DNA of 44,462 nucleotides from Saprospiraceae bacterium (lineage in GTDB: Bacteria > Bacteroidota > Bacteroidia > Chitinophagales > Saprospiraceae). How positions within the stretch are numbered: the stretch's first letter is position 1; every line of letters starts with the position of its first letter. The stretch is from the NCBI GenBank assembly GCA_029263015.1, contig JAJCYI010000018.1, positions 1-44,462 on the forward strand. Direction: 5' to 3'. The position numbers and the translations under genes were made by a program. This document shows, in pieces, positions 16,887 to 31,844 of the stretch. Below the pieces are notes generated by a model, which ran no database searches, was not told the origin of the DNA, and saw nothing but the letters and a program-made list of their open reading frames with translations.

Positions 16887-17255
16887 TCAAATCAGTTTTA
16901 CTCCATAAGGGTGAAAGTTTGAGTCATCAGTCATTGTATGAATGTCTTCAGTCAATGCTTGCGCAATTAACATTCTATCAAAAGGATCTCTATGGTGGAA
17001 CGGTAGTTTTTGAACGGATTCAATATGGGCGAGGGTAATGTTTAAAAAATCCATTTCTTGCGGCACAAACAAATCAAAGTTTGTTGGAATATCTAATTTG
17101 CCAATGCTTGTTTTTATGGATATTTCCCACATGCTTGCAAGACTGACCAAAATATGGTTTGAAGAGTTTGTGATAATTTTTCTTCTTGAAGTAGATAGGC
17201 GTTTTTCACCTTTTACAAACCATAGTAAAATGTGTGTATCCAACAGTATATTCAT
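16887..17255 (-). CDS. PIN-domain toxin (VapC-like)
   Basis: 122-residue PIN nuclease with conserved acidic positions Asp6 (LLDTHILLWF), Glu44 (SMWEISIKTSIGKL), Asp90/Asp93 (HHRDPFDRMLIAQA) and Asp110. Type II toxins of this family cleave RNA, often tRNA. Its start follows the stop of the DUF2281-type antitoxin by 2 nt, the normal antitoxin-first order. The pair is inserted between dihydropyrimidinase and beta-ureidopropionase in the same orientation. It is clearly homologous to the PIN protein at 29599-29985. Confidence 0.88.
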   Translation of the reverse strand: MNILLDTHILLWFVKGEKRLSTSRRKIITNSSNHILVSLASMWEISIKTSIGKLDIPTNFDLFVPQEMDFLNITLAHIESVQKLPFHHRDPFDRMLIAQALTEDIHTMTDDSNFHPYGVKLI

Positions 17256-17257
17256 AT

Positions 17258-17554
17258 CTACATATATTCTTTAAAATCATCAAGAGGGGCATTGAAATCG
17301 TCCGCTATAAATTTTACCAAATGTTTTCCACTTCCAAACTTGAGGGCGACGGGTTTTCCAGAACGTTCAATTTTTACAATTGGCAAGGACCTGCTGGAAC
17401 CTGGAGGAACATCTTCATCAGATTTGTTTTGCTCAGAGTGGTTGACAATTCCCTTTTTATTTTTTGCTACTAGCTTTTCGAAAAAAATCAATAGCTCCTC
17501 TTTCATGCTTTCTGGCAATTGACTGAATTGTTTTAAAAATAATTGCTCTGTCAT
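17258..17554 (-). CDS. DUF2281-type antitoxin
   Basis: 98 residues. N-terminal helix EQLFLKQFSQLPESMKEELLIFFEKLVAKN, then a disordered linker. The C-terminal toxin-neutralising tail KFGSGKHLVKFIADDFNAPLDDFKEYM is characteristic of DUF2281 antitoxins paired with PIN toxins. The middle (LPIVKIERSGKPVALKFG) is longer than usual. A -7-like element at 17579-17586 lies just after the dihydropyrimidinase stop, so the module may be expressed separately from the operon. Confidence 0.82.
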   Translation of the reverse strand: MTEQLFLKQFSQLPESMKEELLIFFEKLVAKNKKGIVNHSEQNKSDEDVPPGSSRSLPIVKIERSGKPVALKFGSGKHLVKFIADDFNAPLDDFKEYM

Positions 17555-26390: not shown

Positions 26391-28700
26391 CTATATTACT
26401 GCTACGCCATTCGCACTGTTGTTTTCAAGCTCCCCATACAACCCCATCAACACCTTCTCCGGCGTCATTGGCGCGGCATATTTTTCCAATTGTAAATCTG
26501 GATTAAACGCCAGCATCGCATTCAAAATGGCAAAATACGCTCCGATACCATACATCAGCGGCGGTTCACCAACGGCCTTTGAGCGAAAGATGGCTAGTTC
26601 CGAGCCGTCCGTATTTAGGAAATGCACGTCGATGTCTTTTGGCACGGAGTAGATGTCTGGTATTTTGTAAGTGGAAAGGGCATTGCTCATCAGGCGGCCT
26701 TCGTTGCTGTACATCAGTTCCTCCATGGTCATCCAGCCGATACCCTGCACGATGCCTCCTTCGGCCTGTCCGAGGTCAATCATACGGTTCATGCTGGCGC
26801 CGAAATCGTGTACTACTTTTACCGAATCAAATTCATAACGTCCGCGCAGGCAGTCTAAGGTAGCGGTAATAATTGCGGTGCCGTAAACATGGTAGGCAAA
26901 AGGGTGGCCCTTTTCTTTTTTTTTGTCAAAATGGATGTGAGGGGTGGCGTAATGACCCTTTGCGCTCAAGTTGACCCGCTGTGTGAACGCCAGGGAAATC
27001 AATTGTTCCCATTGCATGGAAGAGGGTTTTCCATTGACCAAAACTTGGTCATATTTCAATTCAATATTTTCCGGTTTAGTATTGAATTCAGATGCTGCAG
27101 TTTTTTGCAAACGCTCCAAGATTTGCCGACAGGCGATGGTCAATGCCTTGCCATTGAGGTCAGCAGTTGCGCTTGCCGCGGAGGGGGAAGTGTTGGCAAC
27201 CCGTGTCGTATTGGTCGACTCTATTTTTATTTTATTTATTGAAATTCCAAAGGTGTTGGCAGCCACTTGCAGCATCTTGGTATTGACGCCCTGGCCCATT
27301 TCCACTGCCCCAGTACTGATGCCAACACTTCCGTCGCTATAAACATGCACGAGGGCCCGGGCATTGTTCATTTGTGTGTTGGTAAAGGAAATGCCAAAGC
27401 AAATGGGCATCAGCGCCAGCCCTTTTTTAAATAAGGTATTTTTTTTATTAAAATCCTCGACTGCTTGTTGCATATCCGCCAAGTTGTAGCGCTCCTCCGC
27501 TCCGTCCCAGCAGGCGATGGCTTCCTTTGCTTCCGCGATTTGGCCATAAGGAAACTCATCGCCGTTTTTCAATAAATTTTTCCTTTGAATGATATTGGCC
27601 GACACTCCCAGTTCTCTCGCTGCATGGTGTATGGCTGACTCGATGACGAACATTGCCTGTGGCCCGCCGAAGCCGCGGAAGGCAGTATTCGGCGGCAGAT
27701 TGGTGCGGCAAGAGTAAGCTGTTGCAGTCACGTTCGGTAGGAAGTAACTGTTGTTCGCGTGGAACAGCGTGCGCTCCATGATGGCAGGGGAAAGATCAGC
27801 GGCAGCGCCCGCATTTTGGTAGTACGTGGCCTCGTATGCGACGATATTAAAATGCTCGTCCAGCCCGATTTTATAATCGGAAGAATAAGGATGGCGTTTG
27901 CCGGTCATACGCATGTCGTCCATGCGGTGCAGTATCAGTTTGATTGGTTTTTGCAAATGAAAAACGCCCAGCGCTACCATCACGCCCCAGCCTGTGGCCT
28001 GATCTTCCTTCCCGCCGAAGCCACCGCCGAGACGAGTCACGTCCACCTCGATTTTGTGCATGGGGATGCCGAGAACTTTGGCTACCGTGCGTTGCATTGC
28101 CGTCGGCCCCTGTGTGGAGGAGGAGATGCGGATGCTGCCGTTTTCCATCGGGTAGCCATATGCCCCCTGCGTCTCGATGTATAAATGTTCCTGTCCACCC
28201 GATTCGGCAATGCCCTCGAAGACGTATTTACATTTTTGAAATGCCGCCCCAACATTACCGAGCTGGAAGGTGCGGGGTGGTATAATAAGGTGTCCTGCAG
28301 CCTGCGCCTCCCGAGGGTCGGTGATGACGGGCAGCGGTTCTATATCTACTTCTATTTTATGCAATGCCGCCCTTGCCTGCGCCTCCGTTTCGGCAATGAC
28401 CAAGGCGATGGGCTGTCCCCGAAAATGCACTTCCCCCTCTGCCAGCAAAGGCTCATCGGGAATAATGCCGCCGATTTGGTTGTCGCTGGGAATGTCTTCG
28501 TGGGTGAAAATCCGCACGATGCCGGGTTCGTTTTGCGCAGCGGAAATGTCGAGGTGGTTGATTTTTCCGTGAGCCTCTGAGGAGGCGAAGACGGCGGCAT
28601 GGAGGGTGCCACTGCGCACGGGGATGTCGTCCACGTAAATGGATTGACCTCGGACGTGAGAGTAGGAGTCGAGGTTGGGGAGCTGGGCAATTGGTTTCAT
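26391..28700 (-). CDS. xdhB: xanthine dehydrogenase, molybdopterin-binding subunit
   Basis: Large catalytic subunit converting hypoxanthine/xanthine to urate. 769 residues. Molybdopterin-site motifs are GGGFGGKED (225-233) and RGFGGPQ (342-348), with the catalytic Glu712 in KAVGEPPLMYGIGAYFA. GAVEMGQGVNTKMLQVAA and TSPSAASATADLNGKA are typical of the family. The ATG shares one base with the stop of the PIN gene upstream (TAATG), so a toxin gene is translationally coupled to a metabolic enzyme. No XdhC cofactor-insertion gene is in the window. Confidence 0.95.
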   Translation of the reverse strand: MKPIAQLPNLDSYSHVRGQSIYVDDIPVRSGTLHAAVFASSEAHGKINHLDISAAQNEPGIVRIFTHEDIPSDNQIGGIIPDEPLLAEGEVHFRGQPIALVIAETEAQARAALHKIEVDIEPLPVITDPREAQAAGHLIIPPRTFQLGNVGAAFQKCKYVFEGIAESGGQEHLYIETQGAYGYPMENGSIRISSSTQGPTAMQRTVAKVLGIPMHKIEVDVTRLGGGFGGKEDQATGWGVMVALGVFHLQKPIKLILHRMDDMRMTGKRHPYSSDYKIGLDEHFNIVAYEATYYQNAGAAADLSPAIMERTLFHANNSYFLPNVTATAYSCRTNLPPNTAFRGFGGPQAMFVIESAIHHAARELGVSANIIQRKNLLKNGDEFPYGQIAEAKEAIACWDGAEERYNLADMQQAVEDFNKKNTLFKKGLALMPICFGISFTNTQMNNARALVHVYSDGSVGISTGAVEMGQGVNTKMLQVAANTFGISINKIKIESTNTTRVANTSPSAASATADLNGKALTIACRQILERLQKTAASEFNTKPENIELKYDQVLVNGKPSSMQWEQLISLAFTQRVNLSAKGHYATPHIHFDKKKEKGHPFAYHVYGTAIITATLDCLRGRYEFDSVKVVHDFGASMNRMIDLGQAEGGIVQGIGWMTMEELMYSNEGRLMSNALSTYKIPDIYSVPKDIDVHFLNTDGSELAIFRSKAVGEPPLMYGIGAYFAILNAMLAFNPDLQLEKYAAPMTPEKVLMGLYGELENNSANGVAVI

Positions 28701-29107
28701 TATTTCTCCAATTCTTTTTTAAATGCCTCCGCATCGATGATTGCCACTTTTGGAAAATCAATCTTCCTCAATATTTGAAAATGCTTGTCGTGGCTCACCA
28801 AATATTTTGCATTCCCAGTAATTGCGCAATCGACAAACTTGTTGTCGTCGGGGTCAGCGATTATTATTTTCCATGCAAAATAATTAGTGACAAATACAAC
28901 ATTAGGGGCATTTTCGATAATTTGAAGAATGGTAGAAGCAAGTTCCTCTCCCATGTGTCTTTCCAATATTTCTTCATATTCAAATAGAATTTCCGTGGAT
29001 ACGCAAAGCGTAAATTCCTCATTTAAAAAACTATCAAAAATCCAACGGAATTCAGAATTGGAGGAAATGCTGACAAGCAGGATGTTGGTGTCTATTACTA
29101 CTCGCAT
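28700..29107 (-). CDS. PIN-domain toxin, COG1569-like
   Basis: 135 residues. Acidic PIN residues: Asp6 (RVVIDTNILLVSISS), Glu42/Glu46 (LFEYEEIL), Asp85/Asp88/Asp93 (ADPDDNKFVDCAI) and Asp107 (VSHDKHF). The phrase YLVSHDKHFQIL is typical of the 'putative toxin-antitoxin system toxin component, PIN family'. It follows its presumed antitoxin by 5 nt. The stop TAA overlaps the xdhB start. Different subfamily from the two DUF2281-linked PIN proteins. Confidence 0.88.
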   Translation of the reverse strand: MRVVIDTNILLVSISSNSEFRWIFDSFLNEEFTLCVSTEILFEYEEILERHMGEELASTILQIIENAPNVVFVTNYFAWKIIIADPDDNKFVDCAITGNAKYLVSHDKHFQILRKIDFPKVAIIDAEAFKKELEK

Positions 29108-29112
29108 GGGAA

Positions 29113-29349
29113 TTATTTGCGATTATAAGGAGTGCGCATATGCGTATTTGCAAACCGCTTCATATCCTCGTTCGTCCACTCTTTTTCTTCCCATTTTTCA
29201 TCAGCCAAACGAGTTGCTTTTTCGGCCAAGTACCTCACCAGTAAACGTTTTATAGCGAGTAAATCAGTTTCACCCAAATCTCTAGAAAACAACTTCAATA
29301 ATTCCAGTTGGATATTGTTGAGCGGTGTTTTTAAAGTTTGTGCTTCCAT
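29113..29349 (-). CDS. antitoxin of the COG1569-type PIN pair
   Basis: 78 residues: LNNIQLELLKLFSRDLGETDLLAIKRLLVRYLAEKATRLADEKWEEKEWTNEDMKRFANTHMRTPYNRK. The pattern 'LN.IQ.ELLKLFS...E..L..IK..L..Y.AEKA...AD..W' is a common Bacteroidota antitoxin-like protein preceding PIN toxins. Helical oligomerisation part first, charged toxin-binding tail last. The only recognisable partner is the PIN gene 5 nt downstream. Confidence 0.78.
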   Translation of the reverse strand: MEAQTLKTPLNNIQLELLKLFSRDLGETDLLAIKRLLVRYLAEKATRLADEKWEEKEWTNEDMKRFANTHMRTPYNRK

Positions 29350-29406: not shown

Positions 29407-29550
29407 TTAAACCAATTCCTCCAACCTCAATTCGTTATTTCCCACCTCCAAAAAACAGCCAAAAAACAACTGCCTCAAAAGTAGCCTTTTATATTCCTCC
29501 GTTCCCCTCGCATCACTAATCGGCGATATTTCCTCTTGAATGATCGCCGC
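29407..29550 (-). pseudogene. relic of a second xdhA 3' end
   Basis: 47 codons plus TAA matching the last 47 codons of xdhA (30411-30554). By eye about 19 of 142 nt differ (near 87% identity), but only 5 of 47 residues do. It reads IQEEISPISDARGTEEYKRL...FFGCFLEVGNNELRLEELV. Similarity ends at about 29553, where the frame meets a stop. Mostly synonymous divergence means the copy evolved as a working gene elsewhere before becoming a fragment. One PIN module and the 122-bp element lie between it and the intact xdhA end. Confidence 0.88.
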
Positions 29551-29598
29551 ATTTTATTAGAAGTTGAAGATAGGGTTTAAGCCCGCAGGTAAATGAAG

Positions 29599-29985
29599 TC
29601 AAGCCCAAACAACACCAACCTTATAACCCTTGAATTTCTCATCATGTGTTATGATTTCAATATTTTCCGACATTGCTTGCGCAATAATCATTCTGTCAAA
29701 AGGGTCATTGTGGTGGAAGGGAAGGATTGAAAGTACTTGGTAATGTGCAAAATCGAAAGGTAGTAGGACAAAACCATTTTGCAATAATAATAATTCTAAT
29801 TGTTGGATGGAGTACCCTAATTTCAATTTGCCGATACTCACTTTGATGGCCATTTCCCAGAGCGAGGCATGACTGACAAACAAATCGTTGGCAGGGTCAT
29901 TTAGAATGGACAAAATTGATGGTTTCAACGCCGTATTATTTTCAGCATGCCAAATCAGGACGTGTGTATCAATCAAGTATTTCAT
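29599..29985 (-). CDS. PIN-domain toxin (VapC-like)
   Basis: 128 residues with Asp6 (LIDTHVLIWHAE), Glu44 (SLWEMAIKVSIGKL), Asp94/Asp97 (HHNDPFDRMIIAQA) and Asp115 (ITHDEKF). Same subfamily as the toxin at 16887-17255, with parallel wording at every motif, so the two modules are related but diverged. The start overlaps the antitoxin stop by 4 nt. Between xdhA and xdhB, flanked by the xdhA-tail relic and the 122-bp element. Confidence 0.9.
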   Translation of the reverse strand: MKYLIDTHVLIWHAENNTALKPSILSILNDPANDLFVSHASLWEMAIKVSIGKLKLGYSIQQLELLLLQNGFVLLPFDFAHYQVLSILPFHHNDPFDRMIIAQAMSENIEIITHDEKFKGYKVGVVWA

Positions 29986-30194
29986 GTGGGCATGTAGTCT
30001 TCAAACCCTTCAGGTGTCGCATCAAAGTCTGAGGCGACATATAAAAAAATGCCTTTGCCCCAGCCAGGTTTCCGGAAGGGCTTTTGAGGAGGAGTGGCGA
30101 CCTTCTTTAAGCTGAGTAATTTATTAAGTAACTTATTGTCCTTTAAATAACTGATCCAGACAATTAATTCCAGTTTTATTGATTCGGTAGACAT
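29982..30194 (-). CDS. DUF2281-type antitoxin
   Basis: 70 residues. The C-terminal PGWGKGIFLYVASDFDATPEGFEDYM is the DUF2281 tail seen in PIN-linked antitoxins; the N-terminus is a short helix (ESIKLELIVWISYLKDNKLLNKLLSLKK). Smaller than the homologue at 17258. Overlaps the toxin start by 4 nt. A -7-like element is 16 nt upstream. Confidence 0.82.
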   Translation of the reverse strand: MSTESIKLELIVWISYLKDNKLLNKLLSLKKVATPPQKPFRKPGWGKGIFLYVASDFDATPEGFEDYMPT

Positions 30195-30209
30195 AGATTT
30201 ATGTTTTTA

Positions 30210-30217
30210 CAAAGTTA
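30210..30217 (-). promoter_or_regulatory. -7-like element for the 29982/29599 TA pair
   Basis: TAACTTTG on the minus strand fits TAnnTTTG, 16 nt before the antitoxin ATG. No well-placed TTTG upstream. Confidence 0.4.
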
Positions 30218-30238
30218 CCCTTTTTAACTTTTATGGTA

Positions 30239-30360
30239 CTTTGACAAATCCCGTGATTTTAGTTTTCATAGCGGGTGAAAGGTGACACCTTTCCAAAAGG
30301 TGTCACCTTTTGGCTTCCTTTTACCATTTGGTTTGAGGGTTTCCACGGGATTTGTCAAAG
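30239..30360. repeat. 122-bp MITE-like element with 17-bp terminal inverted repeats
   Basis: CTTTGACAAATCCCGTG at 30239-30255 and its exact complement at 30344-30360 bound a segment with no gene. Inside is a second perfect palindrome (30278-30292 and 30296-30310, AAAGGTGACACCTTT with a 3-nt loop). No clear target duplication is visible. It lies in the gap between xdhA and the DUF2281 antitoxin, so its transcript would fold strongly within the operon mRNA. Confidence 0.8.
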
Positions 30361-30410
30361 AACCACTTTTATTAACTAACGCCTTTTGGTTCGATTTAAT
30401 TCAGGTGTTT

Positions 30411-31844
30411 TTAAACCAATTCCCCCAACCTCAATTCGTTATTTTCCATTTCCAAAAAGCACCCAAAAAACAACTGTCTCAAAAGCAGCCGTTTATATTC
30501 CTCTGTCCCCCTCGCATCGCTGATCGGTGATATTTCTTCTTGAATAACCGCGCCTGTTTTTTTAATTAAATCCGCATTTATTTTTTGTCCTTTCATTGTC
30601 GCCGAACTCCGCTCCAAATACATTGGTACCGGCCCGACGCCACCAGCGGAAATATGTGCTTCCTGAATTGTTTCCCCGTCCATTTTTAATAAGCAAGCAG
30701 TGTTCACGCTGGCGATATCGAGATGGGTTCGCTTGCATACTTTTTCAAAATGGAAATGGTCTGTCTTTTTGGGGATTTCAAAAAATATAGATTCGATATA
30801 TTCGTCGGGGGCTTTGTCTAATGTTTTATAGCCTTTGTAAAAATGCCGCAATTTCAACGTGCGTTTATTTCCGTTTGTATTTAAAACAATGCTGCTGTCG
30901 AGGGCGAGGAAAAAGATGGTCAGGTCGCCGATGGGGGAGGCGTTGACGAGGTTGCCGCCGAGGGTGCCCATGTTGCGGATGGGCGTGGAGGATACCAATT
31001 TTATATGTTGTCGGAGTTTTGGAAAAATGGACTGCATGAGCGGTGATTCCTGTAGGTCGGTAGCAGTGACTGCTGCGCCGATGTGGCAATGGCCTCCCGC
31101 TTCGTATATTCCGTTTAATTCTTTTTGGTCAAATATCGGCTTGATGGAGGCATTCGCCATCGTCTCAGGTTTTTGCACAAACAGGTCGGTGCCGCCACCG
31201 ACGAAAGTACCATTTCCTTTATTTTGTTTTTTGGAAAATGTGCTATCGGGAAGCGCTTCGAAACGCTCTCTTATTGTCAAAAAATAATGAGGTAGGTAAT
31301 GATTTTCGACAAGCCATTGGAGGCGGTTCTCTTTTGGTTGGTCGACTGTTTTTTGGGCTATTTGGGCAGCAGCCCTTTCGAGGGATTTATAGCCGGTGCA
31401 GCGACAAATGTTGCCGTCTATTGCAGCAATGGCAGGGCTTACACCTGACAGGTTTTCAAAACCTGTCAGGTGTGTGGGTTGATGCATGGTAAACCCCGTT
31501 AGCGACACCACAAAACCGACAGTACAAAAACCGCACTGCGTCCCTCCTTCTTCCACGATGGCCTGTTGCACAGGCGATAGTTCTTCCATGTTCAAGCCCT
31601 CGATAGTAACGATATGCTTGCCCTGTGCATTGGACAGAGGCATGAGACAGGAAGTCATGCTGTGATAGCGGAGGTGGCCGTTTTCTATTTCCCCGACGAG
31701 GATGGTACATGCACCGCAGTCGCCTTCCCGGCAGCCGATTTTAGTGCCGACCAAATGTTTGTGGTAGCGCACGAAGTCGAGTACCGTTGTACCTGAGGGG
31801 AGAGGGGTTTGGATGGTTTGGTTGTTTAATAGGAAAGTGGTCAT
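30411..31844 (-). CDS. xdhA: xanthine dehydrogenase, 2Fe-2S and FAD subunit
   Basis: 477 residues from the ATG at 31844; a start 23 codons upstream would overlap the transporter end and lacks family character. Plant-type 2Fe-2S Cys38/43/46/66 (GCREGDCGACTIL), second cluster Cys104/107 and Cys147/149 (QCGFCTVGF, GNICRCTGY). The FAD domain begins at about residue 210 (GTFVGGGTDLFVQK; TPIRNMGTLGGNLVNASPIGD). A perfect 33-nt palindrome encodes THLTGFENLSGV (about 124-135) before the second half-cluster, an insertion relative to the usual spacing. Its last 47 codons are duplicated downstream at 29407. Confidence 0.94.
   Translation of the reverse strand: MTTFLLNNQTIQTPLPSGTTVLDFVRYHKHLVGTKIGCREGDCGACTILVGEIENGHLRYHSMTSCLMPLSNAQGKHIVTIEGLNMEELSPVQQAIVEEGGTQCGFCTVGFVVSLTGFTMHQPTHLTGFENLSGVSPAIAAIDGNICRCTGYKSLERAAAQIAQKTVDQPKENRLQWLVENHYLPHYFLTIRERFEALPDSTFSKKQNKGNGTFVGGGTDLFVQKPETMANASIKPIFDQKELNGIYEAGGHCHIGAAVTATDLQESPLMQSIFPKLRQHIKLVSSTPIRNMGTLGGNLVNASPIGDLTIFFLALDSSIVLNTNGNKRTLKLRHFYKGYKTLDKAPDEYIESIFFEIPKKTDHFHFEKVCKRTHLDIASVNTACLLKMDGETIQEAHISAGGVGPVPMYLERSSATMKGQKINADLIKKTGAVIQEEISPISDARGTEEYKRLLLRQLFFGCFLEMENNELRLGELV
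31441..31473. repeat. perfect palindrome inside xdhA, 16-bp arms
   Basis: ACACCTGACAGGTTTT-C-AAAACCTGTCAGGTGT. 33 nt is 11 codons, so it preserves the frame. It falls in the linker between the CGFC and GNICRC iron-sulfur segments, where length variation should be tolerated. Confidence 0.9.

Follow-up and report, generated by a model that had tools for sequence, protein, structure and literature searches.

Relic gene ends flank toxin-antitoxin and defence-type cassettes in a Saprospiraceae genome and suggest entry by exchange of ordinary gene ends

The movement of lone toxin-antitoxin (TA) pairs between chromosomes without a transposase or integrase is an old open question. The xanthine dehydrogenase locus of a Saprospiraceae bacterium raises it in concrete form: how did a PIN-type pair come to lie between an intact xdhA and a second, diverged copy of the xdhA 3' end? 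The locus was analysed within a window of 44,462 nt, the whole stretch of DNA under study. The order on the minus strand is xdhA, a MITE-like element, the PIN pair, the relic tail, a second PIN pair that an earlier sequence-only reading did not include, and xdhB (Table 1).

Table 1. Features of the xdhA-xdhB locus, with positions in the window.
Feature	Position	Strand	Remarks
xdhA (2Fe-2S/FAD subunit, xanthine dehydrogenase)	30411..31844	-	intact; Pfam Fer2, Fer2_2, FAD_binding_5, CO_deh_flav_C
Resident xdhA tail, last 48 codons + stop	30411-30557	-	tail alignment
MITE-like element	30234..30365	.	22-nt inverted ends (30234-30255 and 30344-30365) and inner palindrome; 132 bp overall
Cassette 1 antitoxin, putative, DUF2281-like	29982..30194	-	below Pfam cut-off
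Cassette 1 PIN toxin (predicted)	29599..29985	-	PF01850, E 4.3e-18
Relic xdhA tail, 48 codons + stop	29407..29553	-	open frame, without start codon
Second pair, putative antitoxin	29113..29349	-	no Pfam match; in relic-xdhB gap; pair spans 29349-28700
Second pair, PIN_3 toxin (predicted)	28700..29107	-	PF13470, E 8e-20; end abuts xdhB start
xdhB (molybdopterin subunit)	26391..28700	-	parted from xdhA by the inserts
Direct repeat	29407-29558 / 30411-30562		152 nt, 86% identity

The repeat that contains the two tails is the only one above 80% identity among the four direct-repeat families of at least 45 nt reported in the 44 kb window. Across 48 sense codons, 123 of 144 nucleotides are the same (85.4%); of the nucleotide differences 15 are synonymous and 6 nonsynonymous, and 6 of 48 residues are changed. 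This confirms the duplicated tail of the sequence-only reading, with five residue changes in the last 47 codons. The repeat alignment, together with a match of the relic to the xdhA protein (E 7.9e-20), rules out chance similarity. The relic starts 40-45 nt past the PIN stop codon of cassette 1, and the homology stops at the common TAA stop.

Cassette 1 is, as judged from its domains, a type II TA pair with a predicted PIN toxin. The toxin scores 66.5 bits against PF01850 (family cut-off 23.6); the putative antitoxin is a 70-aa ORF that shares 4 nt with the start of the toxin gene and scores 18.8 bits against DUF2281, under the cut-off of 26.5. PADLOC returned no match for either protein. The PIN assignment made earlier stands, the DUF2281 label is weak, and the element with terminal inverted repeats measures 132 bp rather than 122. 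No integrase lies between the xdhA copies, where the gene-strand ORFs of at least 50 codons are the antitoxin and the PIN toxin only. The MITE occurs at six further places in the same genome (95-99% across 131-154 nt); because of these many other copies it was judged incidental and rejected as the vehicle of the insert.

The locus was compared with 15 loci of relatives (the top 13 of one match list and two of another). In 13 of these, xdhB lies at most about 460 nt from xdhA; the exceptions are locus L025 and the nearest relative, G010. G010 was rejected as an empty-site strain, since a peptidase-like gene comes after its xdhA and its xdhB stands at the start of a separate contig; in the roughly 190 bases ahead of that xdhB, blastn with the window stretch gave no relic. 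Neither a donor genome nor an insert-free strain was found for xdhA among the relatives searched. For xdhA the resident tail is 79.9% and the relic tail 78.5% identical to G010, which does not tell host from donor tail. A sliding comparison of xdhA with G010, made for a donor segment, gave no clear step at the tail; identity falls mid-gene (windows from codon 100 to 160) and is variable elsewhere.

The differences between the tails nevertheless bear on their ancestry. In an outgroup-free test pooled over four gene/relic pairs, nonsynonymous changes make up 28 of the 75 differences against an expectation of at least 58.7% (P 1.5e-4), so that the divergence of the pooled tails is mostly selected. 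The same test gives P 0.005 for xdhA alone and is not significant alone for the sigma-54-regulator-like gene (P 0.15) and the genome's own purL (P 0.17). A relic-branch count of 22 synonymous to 14 nonsynonymous changes gave P 9e-6, and the xdhA relic branch, with G010 as the single outgroup, carries 8 synonymous to 3 nonsynonymous changes where neutrality predicts 27% synonymous (P 0.0023). The relics of the TonB-receptor-like gene, C139, C142:38508, C242, G003 and G156 were left out as short, decayed or without a tested outgroup. Because nonsynonymous differences are too few, both tails were probably functional for much of their divergence, and the protein-level selection on both that the sequence-only reading had inferred from the mostly synonymous differences is borne out. 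In-place duplication followed by neutral decay of the relic is rejected on these substitution patterns for xdhA and for the pooled pairs, which support a different ancestry of the two tails.

The structure recurs. A scan of 1.32 of the 6.95 Mb of this one draft, non-random because 17 of its stretches were picked around PIN genes, found a downstream relic of the gene's own 3' end for 7 of 867 genes, versus one weak 5' case; for five of the seven, the DNA between gene and relic carries TA or defence-type genes. The genes are xdhA (cargo a PIN pair); the sigma-54-regulator-like gene (PIN pair; relic 94.7% across 414 nt); a TonB-receptor-like gene (AbiEii pair, Fic gene and PIN_3 pair; three relics); a 423-codon gene on contig C139 (DUF4143 ATPase; relic 62 nt, 98%); purL (GHKL ATPase, HNH and type II methylase; relic 93.9% across 264 nt); the gene at C142:38508-42080 (RiPP-type cluster); and a methyltransferase-like gene on C242 (transposase-like gene). 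Two were counted by judgement after the script had labelled their relics paralogs: at C142:38508 the relic lies under a different reading frame, and the sigma-54 relic has an open frame of 125 codons of its own. Seven head matches fell inside ORFs, six judged real paralogous gene pairs and one being the sigma-54 relic itself. The wrong-direction background outside long ORFs was one tail upstream and five heads downstream. PIN loci are over-represented within gene/relic repeats, with 3 of 20 versus 1.24% of the sequence spanned (P 0.0019).

Further TA modules with a duplicated gene 3' end on either side, which the sequence-only reading had proposed to look for, thus exist in the same genome, and they were found in relatives as well. 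Relics of the purL tail occur in four genomes: our own, G003 (two), G008 and G156, with TA-like genes near those of the relatives; the tail search gave four extra rows in three genomes (51 with a match, 130 searched). The G008 relic is 87.9% identical to its own gene and 84.8% to the G004 gene, and the tree gave supports (43 and 55) that do not place it. In other genera of the family, 6 of 40 PIN loci are flanked by direct repeats, as a raw count. In two of the six (L297 and L307) a PIN pair separates a gene from its relic tail; the others show a repeated terminator-like hairpin (L296), intergenic repeats (L302, L321) or an unclassified array of repeats of about 80 nt each (L289). Loci L293, L299, L305, L308 and L324, with repeats elsewhere than around the PIN gene, were not counted.

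The joints differ among cases. The L307 tails show one difference in the first 166 alignment columns and 44 in the other 135; this sharp step suggests recombination with diverged DNA and points to a crossover inside the tail, where such a step would be expected. It is the only internal step; there is none in xdhA, and in our own purL the differences gather at the 5' end, the opposite of L307. Homology extends beyond the stop codon by 155 nt in L297 and 67 nt in L307. In all seven genes of our own genome it ends, as judged by eye, no more than about 6 nt from the stop codon, even where the tails are 94-98% identical, which counts against strain-to-strain recombination because a shared 3' flank is often expected. 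Relic lengths vary from about 47 to 470 nt, and by eye the alignments show no motif common to different genes where their relics begin. A shared start, within 2 nt by blastn, is seen for the three TonB relics alone, although for one the tblastn match extends further.

We consider the best reading, and a reasonably probable one, to be capture of cassettes from relatives, anchored by homology and completed illegitimately. The incoming DNA, from a related bacterium, would have held that bacterium's xdhA 3' end and then a PIN pair, and would have recombined with the resident xdhA. Homologous recombination within the gene would have made the first joint and kept a complete, foreign-derived tail, and the second joint would be non-homologous and lie within the original tail that was displaced; both types of joint, and the foreign origin of the kept tail, are what we infer. 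The product would be an intact xdhA, a TA cassette and a relic of the old tail, with the MITE arriving separately. Repeated events at one gene could give cassette arrays spaced by old tails, as at the TonB-receptor-like gene and purL. Entry may have been by natural transformation or another route, and the TA or defence cargo was presumably kept by addiction or benefit. The near-equal TonB starts count against this capture, since they are not expected from random illegitimate joining.

Insertion with long target duplication, in which a cassette inserts, about 50-500 bp of target are duplicated and the relic decays in place, would leave a product of the same shape, with host direct repeats flanking the insert. 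Nobusato reportedly described such insertion of restriction-modification genes in 2000. In Helicobacter, restriction-modification genes insert with long target duplication, the reviewed repeats being long, variable and of the order of 100 bp (PMC3031569, PMC1643837, PMC3874152); both systems combine addiction-type genes with host direct repeats of about 100 bp and no known mobile element. The L321 repeats around a PIN pair, 97% alike across 138 nt and not in a gene tail, and the 98% alike C139 repeat fit this explanation. Against it stand the shortage of nonsynonymous differences (28 of 75, P 1.5e-4), the abrupt identity change in L307 and the end of own-genome homology at stop codons, which an arbitrary duplication would ignore. 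Our repeats, unlike those, are gene 3' ends in our own genome, with selected divergence, PIN cargo and tail arrays, and we rate target duplication as unlikely. In Microcystis, a TA pair likewise lies behind a gene, MaOC1, between direct repeats, but these 152-bp repeats are identical, start 14 bp past the stop codon, contain inverted repeats and are not a gene tail (PMC7935541).

Some prophages and islands insert into the 3' end of a gene and rebuild that end, e14 in icd being an example; there too an element-borne tail restores the host gene and the displaced tail is left, whereas here neither an integrase nor a constant core was found. A cassette system for which the gene tail serves as attachment site or homology arm, moving through a circle or a trans-supplied integrase in the manner of integron cassettes, would account for the shared TonB starts, for the similar promoter-side DNA before two TonB relics (by eye), for G005, where different TA pairs stand behind the same tail plus leader (by eye), for homology ending at stop codons, and for a frame restored as in integrase elements. 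The absence of an integrase between the copies, the lack of a common start motif by eye, the widely varying relic lengths and the L307 step make it distinctly improbable. The same start-motif, length and L307 observations leave the likeness to integrase-type integration in the sequence-only reading unsupported; its other half, a cassette whose homologous tail of different ancestry restored the frame, is supported by the substitution tests. Tandem duplication of xdhA, with decay of all but the tail and a TA pair inserted between, agrees with the common orientation of the copies and has a likely parallel in C225:43976, which was classed as a decayed tandem copy from its head and tail matches and left out of the seven. 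It is very hard to square with seven tail cases versus one weak head case, with the four extra purL tail rows set against no extra purL head among 120 genomes searched, 50 of which had a match (a less sensitive control because the head is less conserved), or with our own genome, where no second xdhA longer than the relic is among the matches listed. An assembly artefact merging two strains' versions of the locus is conceivable in a genome of 245 contigs whose named relatives are metagenome assemblies, but no long exact repeat lies at the PIN gene/relic joint and the same structure is found in other genomes; it is the least probable explanation.

The capture that we favour has a counterpart in the effector-immunity arrays of the Vibrio cholerae type VI secretion system, for which homology-facilitated illegitimate recombination was proposed, not demonstrated (PMC5361080). 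The two share an upstream homology anchor, a non-homologous downstream joint, a displaced 3' gene end moved downstream and arrays formed by repetition. There the anchor is the weapon gene itself, which gains a new 3' part; here the anchors are ordinary (xdhA, purL, TonB receptor), the product is little changed and the cargo is TA or defence genes. Such capture at ordinary genes looks new for TA/defence cassettes; top-ranked literature results, covering few subscription journals, included no report of gene-tail relics around TA cassettes.

These results suggest that TA and defence-type genes can enter a genome by swapping an ordinary gene's end for another strain's. The relic tails record the event legibly, giving its polarity and a rough age, and with strains to hand they would allow donor tails to be distinguished from host tails. 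Searching downstream of a gene for a diverged copy of its own 3' end may also, judging by the scan, be a simple way of finding defence cassettes. A broader idea, possible but doubtful, is an integrase-less distributed cassette system, in which TA and defence genes travel with the tails, sometimes the leaders, of conserved genes such as purL. If so, the tail would act as a landing sequence in related genomes, the gene would be rebuilt precisely up to its stop codon, arrays would build up with old tails between, and any conserved gene end may be an attachment site for defence cargo.

Read on the minus strand, the locus runs permease, xdhA, MITE, antitoxin, PIN toxin, relic xdhA tail, second antitoxin, second PIN toxin and xdhB. 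The duplicated xdhA tail described in the sequence-only reading is real: it covers 48 codons, with 123 of 144 nucleotides identical and six residue changes between relic and resident copy. The relic contains no internal stop and closes with the same stop codon as xdhA, where the homology ends. Because xdhB lies no more than about 460 nt from xdhA in 13 of the 15 relatives' loci examined (the 13 best of 57 genomes with some match, from 100 searched, plus two more related loci), the TA modules are inserts within a gene pair that usually stays together. In G010, the nearest relative, the two genes lie on separate contigs, and no relic was found in the roughly 190 bases available 5' of xdhB; G010 also has a pair about 42% identical to the window's second PIN pair, upstream of the permease gene assigned to the same gene group.

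The MITE, 132 bp with 22-nt inverted ends, probably plays no part in the mechanism, since near-identical copies (95-99% over 131-154 nt) occur at six other places in the genome, along with many partial matches. A 33-nt palindrome within the xdhA coding sequence recurs elsewhere (C168, C76 and C59) and appears to be a REP-like element that the gene has accommodated. The window's third PIN pair sits tightly between two other genes; its DUF2281 antitoxin scores 31.9 bits, over the cut-off, and no repeat was found flanking the pair.

Tail relics were sought in the genome across 25 contig stretches (1.32 of 6.95 Mb), 17 of the fetched pieces having been picked around PIN genes. The last 50 residues of 867 ORFs (120 codons or longer) were compared with the following 6 kb, and the first 50 with the preceding 6 kb, on the same strand (E <= 1e-4). 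A relic of the gene's own tail was found downstream of seven, and a single head case was weak (31% over 32 residues); this imbalance suggests polarity, short of proof. PADLOC matched the Fic (SoFic, 2e-37), AbiEii (2.4e-6) and DUF4143 (PDC-S01, 9e-97) genes and, in the purL cargo, the methylase (5e-148) and HNH protein (PtuB-like, 1e-13); the window's PIN and antitoxin had no PADLOC match. The operon behind purL is possibly an unrecognised RM-like defence system. Four paralogous genes in a row adjoin the TonB array, their C-terminal ends alike at 70-90%.

Library searches back the names of the PIN toxins, xdhA, xdhB, AbiEii, DUF6922, Fic, DUF4143, GHKL ATPase and Eco57I-type methylase. Those of the permease, purL, sigma-54 regulator, TonB receptor, peptidase, methyltransferase-like gene, RAYT/transposase-like gene, SPASM, UPF0175, nucleotidyltransferase and ParE-like genes are our presumptive readings of the sequence.

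Genes with tail relics, repeats at PIN loci and neighbouring features (C, contigs of this genome; G, relatives' genomes; L, loci)
Feature	Location	Strand	Content
xdhA	window	-	PIN pair and MITE between gene and relic
Relic xdhA tail	window 29407-29553	-	aligns to last 48 codons of xdhA (30411-30557)
MITE	window 30234-30365		
Third PIN pair	window 16887-17554		
Palindrome	window 31441-31473		
sigma-54 regulator	C194		PIN pair, then relic of 138 codons; second, decayed relic further on
TonB receptor	C142		AbiEii/DUF6922 pair, relic 1, Fic gene, relic 2, PIN_3 pair, relic 3
TonB-adjoining paralogues	C142:56981-58381, 59053-60444, 62873-64765, 65115-67508		in L136, L099
423-codon gene	C139		DUF4143 ATPase; relic 62 nt
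Gene	C142:38508-42080		ATP-grasp gene (MvdD-type domain, 27.5 bits, cut-off 27) and SPASM-like gene
purL	C89		GHKL ATPase, receiver-like, HNH, Eco57I-type methylase, relic, then small-ORF pair without Pfam match
Operon behind purL	L141 6309-11694		GHKL-type ATPase, receiver-like protein, HNH protein, Eco57I-type methylase
Methyltransferase-like gene	C242		RAYT-like gene; relic ~47 nt
PIN locus repeats	L297, L307		gene tails
PIN locus repeats	L302, L321		intergenic
PIN locus repeat	L296		terminator-like hairpin
PIN locus repeats	L289: 1010, 2094, 2915, 4183		array of ~80-nt repeats, ~1 kb apart, between PIN and other small genes; resembles integron cassette array
Gene and relic C-termini	L307 5320-5612		clearly differ after almost identical stretch; natural place to locate crossover
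PIN-like pair in G010	L051 3592-4208		

PIN searches of the genome gave 21 places, one of them an excluded fragment (C210). At three of the 20 loci examined the PIN gene lay between such direct repeats, against 1.24% of sequence spanned by repeats 300 to 3000 nt apart (P 0.0019). Flanking direct repeats were also present at six of 40 family PIN loci, sampled from 87 matches outside this genome (102 in all). TA modules between duplicated gene 3' ends, which the sequence-only reading had proposed to look for, thus occur both in this genome and in relatives (L297, L307).

The purL tail is likewise repeated downstream of purL in two genomes of the same genus, G008 and G003 (14 searched, 12 with any match, eight with a strong one), and, outside that genus, in G156 (130 searched, 51 with a match; four extra tail rows, in G000, G003 and G156). 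At the protein level the G003 relics match weakly (E 2e-5 to 5e-4), though the first is plain in DNA. G008 has a TA-like pair close by, G003 has UPF0175- and PIN-like genes, and in G156 the neighbours are nucleotidyltransferase- and HTH-like. In G005, two TA-like units flank a shorter tail piece that has the same leader. In G004, purL is followed by a UPF0175/PIN-like pair and no relic there is convincing; the DNA fetched from G001, G011 and G013 contained none. A purL head control gave no extra copy in 50 genomes with a match (120 searched), and was less sensitive than the tail search because the head is less conserved.

Synonymous/nonsynonymous differences between gene and relic were 15/6 for xdhA (P 0.005), 12/10 for sigma-54 (P 0.15), 9/7 for own purL (P 0.17) and 11/5 for G008 purL (P 0.025). 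Had the relic arisen in place and drifted beside a constrained resident, at least 58.7% nonsynonymous would be expected; the four pairs pooled give 28 of 75 (37%; P 1.5e-4 at the most lenient setting), which supports the earlier proposal that mostly synonymous divergence reflects selection on both xdhA tails. Polarisation with outgroups assigns 22 synonymous and 14 nonsynonymous changes to the relic branches, where neutrality would give 26% synonymous (P 9e-6; polarisation is rough, with one distant outgroup for xdhA and sigma-54). This nonsynonymous deficit and synonymous excess indicate that the tails passed much of their divergence within working genes, most simply in different genomes. At L307 (genome G103), the gene and relic tails show 1 difference in the first 166 alignment columns and 44 in the remaining 135, or 9/190 versus 36/111 when split at 190 (P 3e-10), both split points being picked post hoc. 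Uniform decay of the relic does not yield this step, whereas a crossover inside the tail, between resident and diverged incoming DNA, can account for it.

Homology-anchored capture with a non-homologous second joint is most likely how insertion works. DNA of a relative would arrive with a gene tail and a cassette; one joint would come from homologous pairing at the gene, the other, needing no homology, would form inside the old tail. The gene would remain intact with its tail partly foreign, cassette and old tail would be left behind it, and arrays would arise by repetition. The nearest alternative, insertion with a long target duplication, could hold for intergenic repeats such as those at L321. 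A process like that of integron cassettes is possible, because the starts of the three TonB relics fall within 2 nt of one another and homology ends so often at the stop codon. Capture anchored by homology is the mechanism proposed for effector-immunity arrays of Vibrio cholerae (PMC5361080). Among the papers listed, no description was found of ordinary gene ends used for TA/defence cassettes, or of tail arrays. We conclude that the tail-relic phenomenon is real and recurrent, and that it is explained in kind by known recombination.
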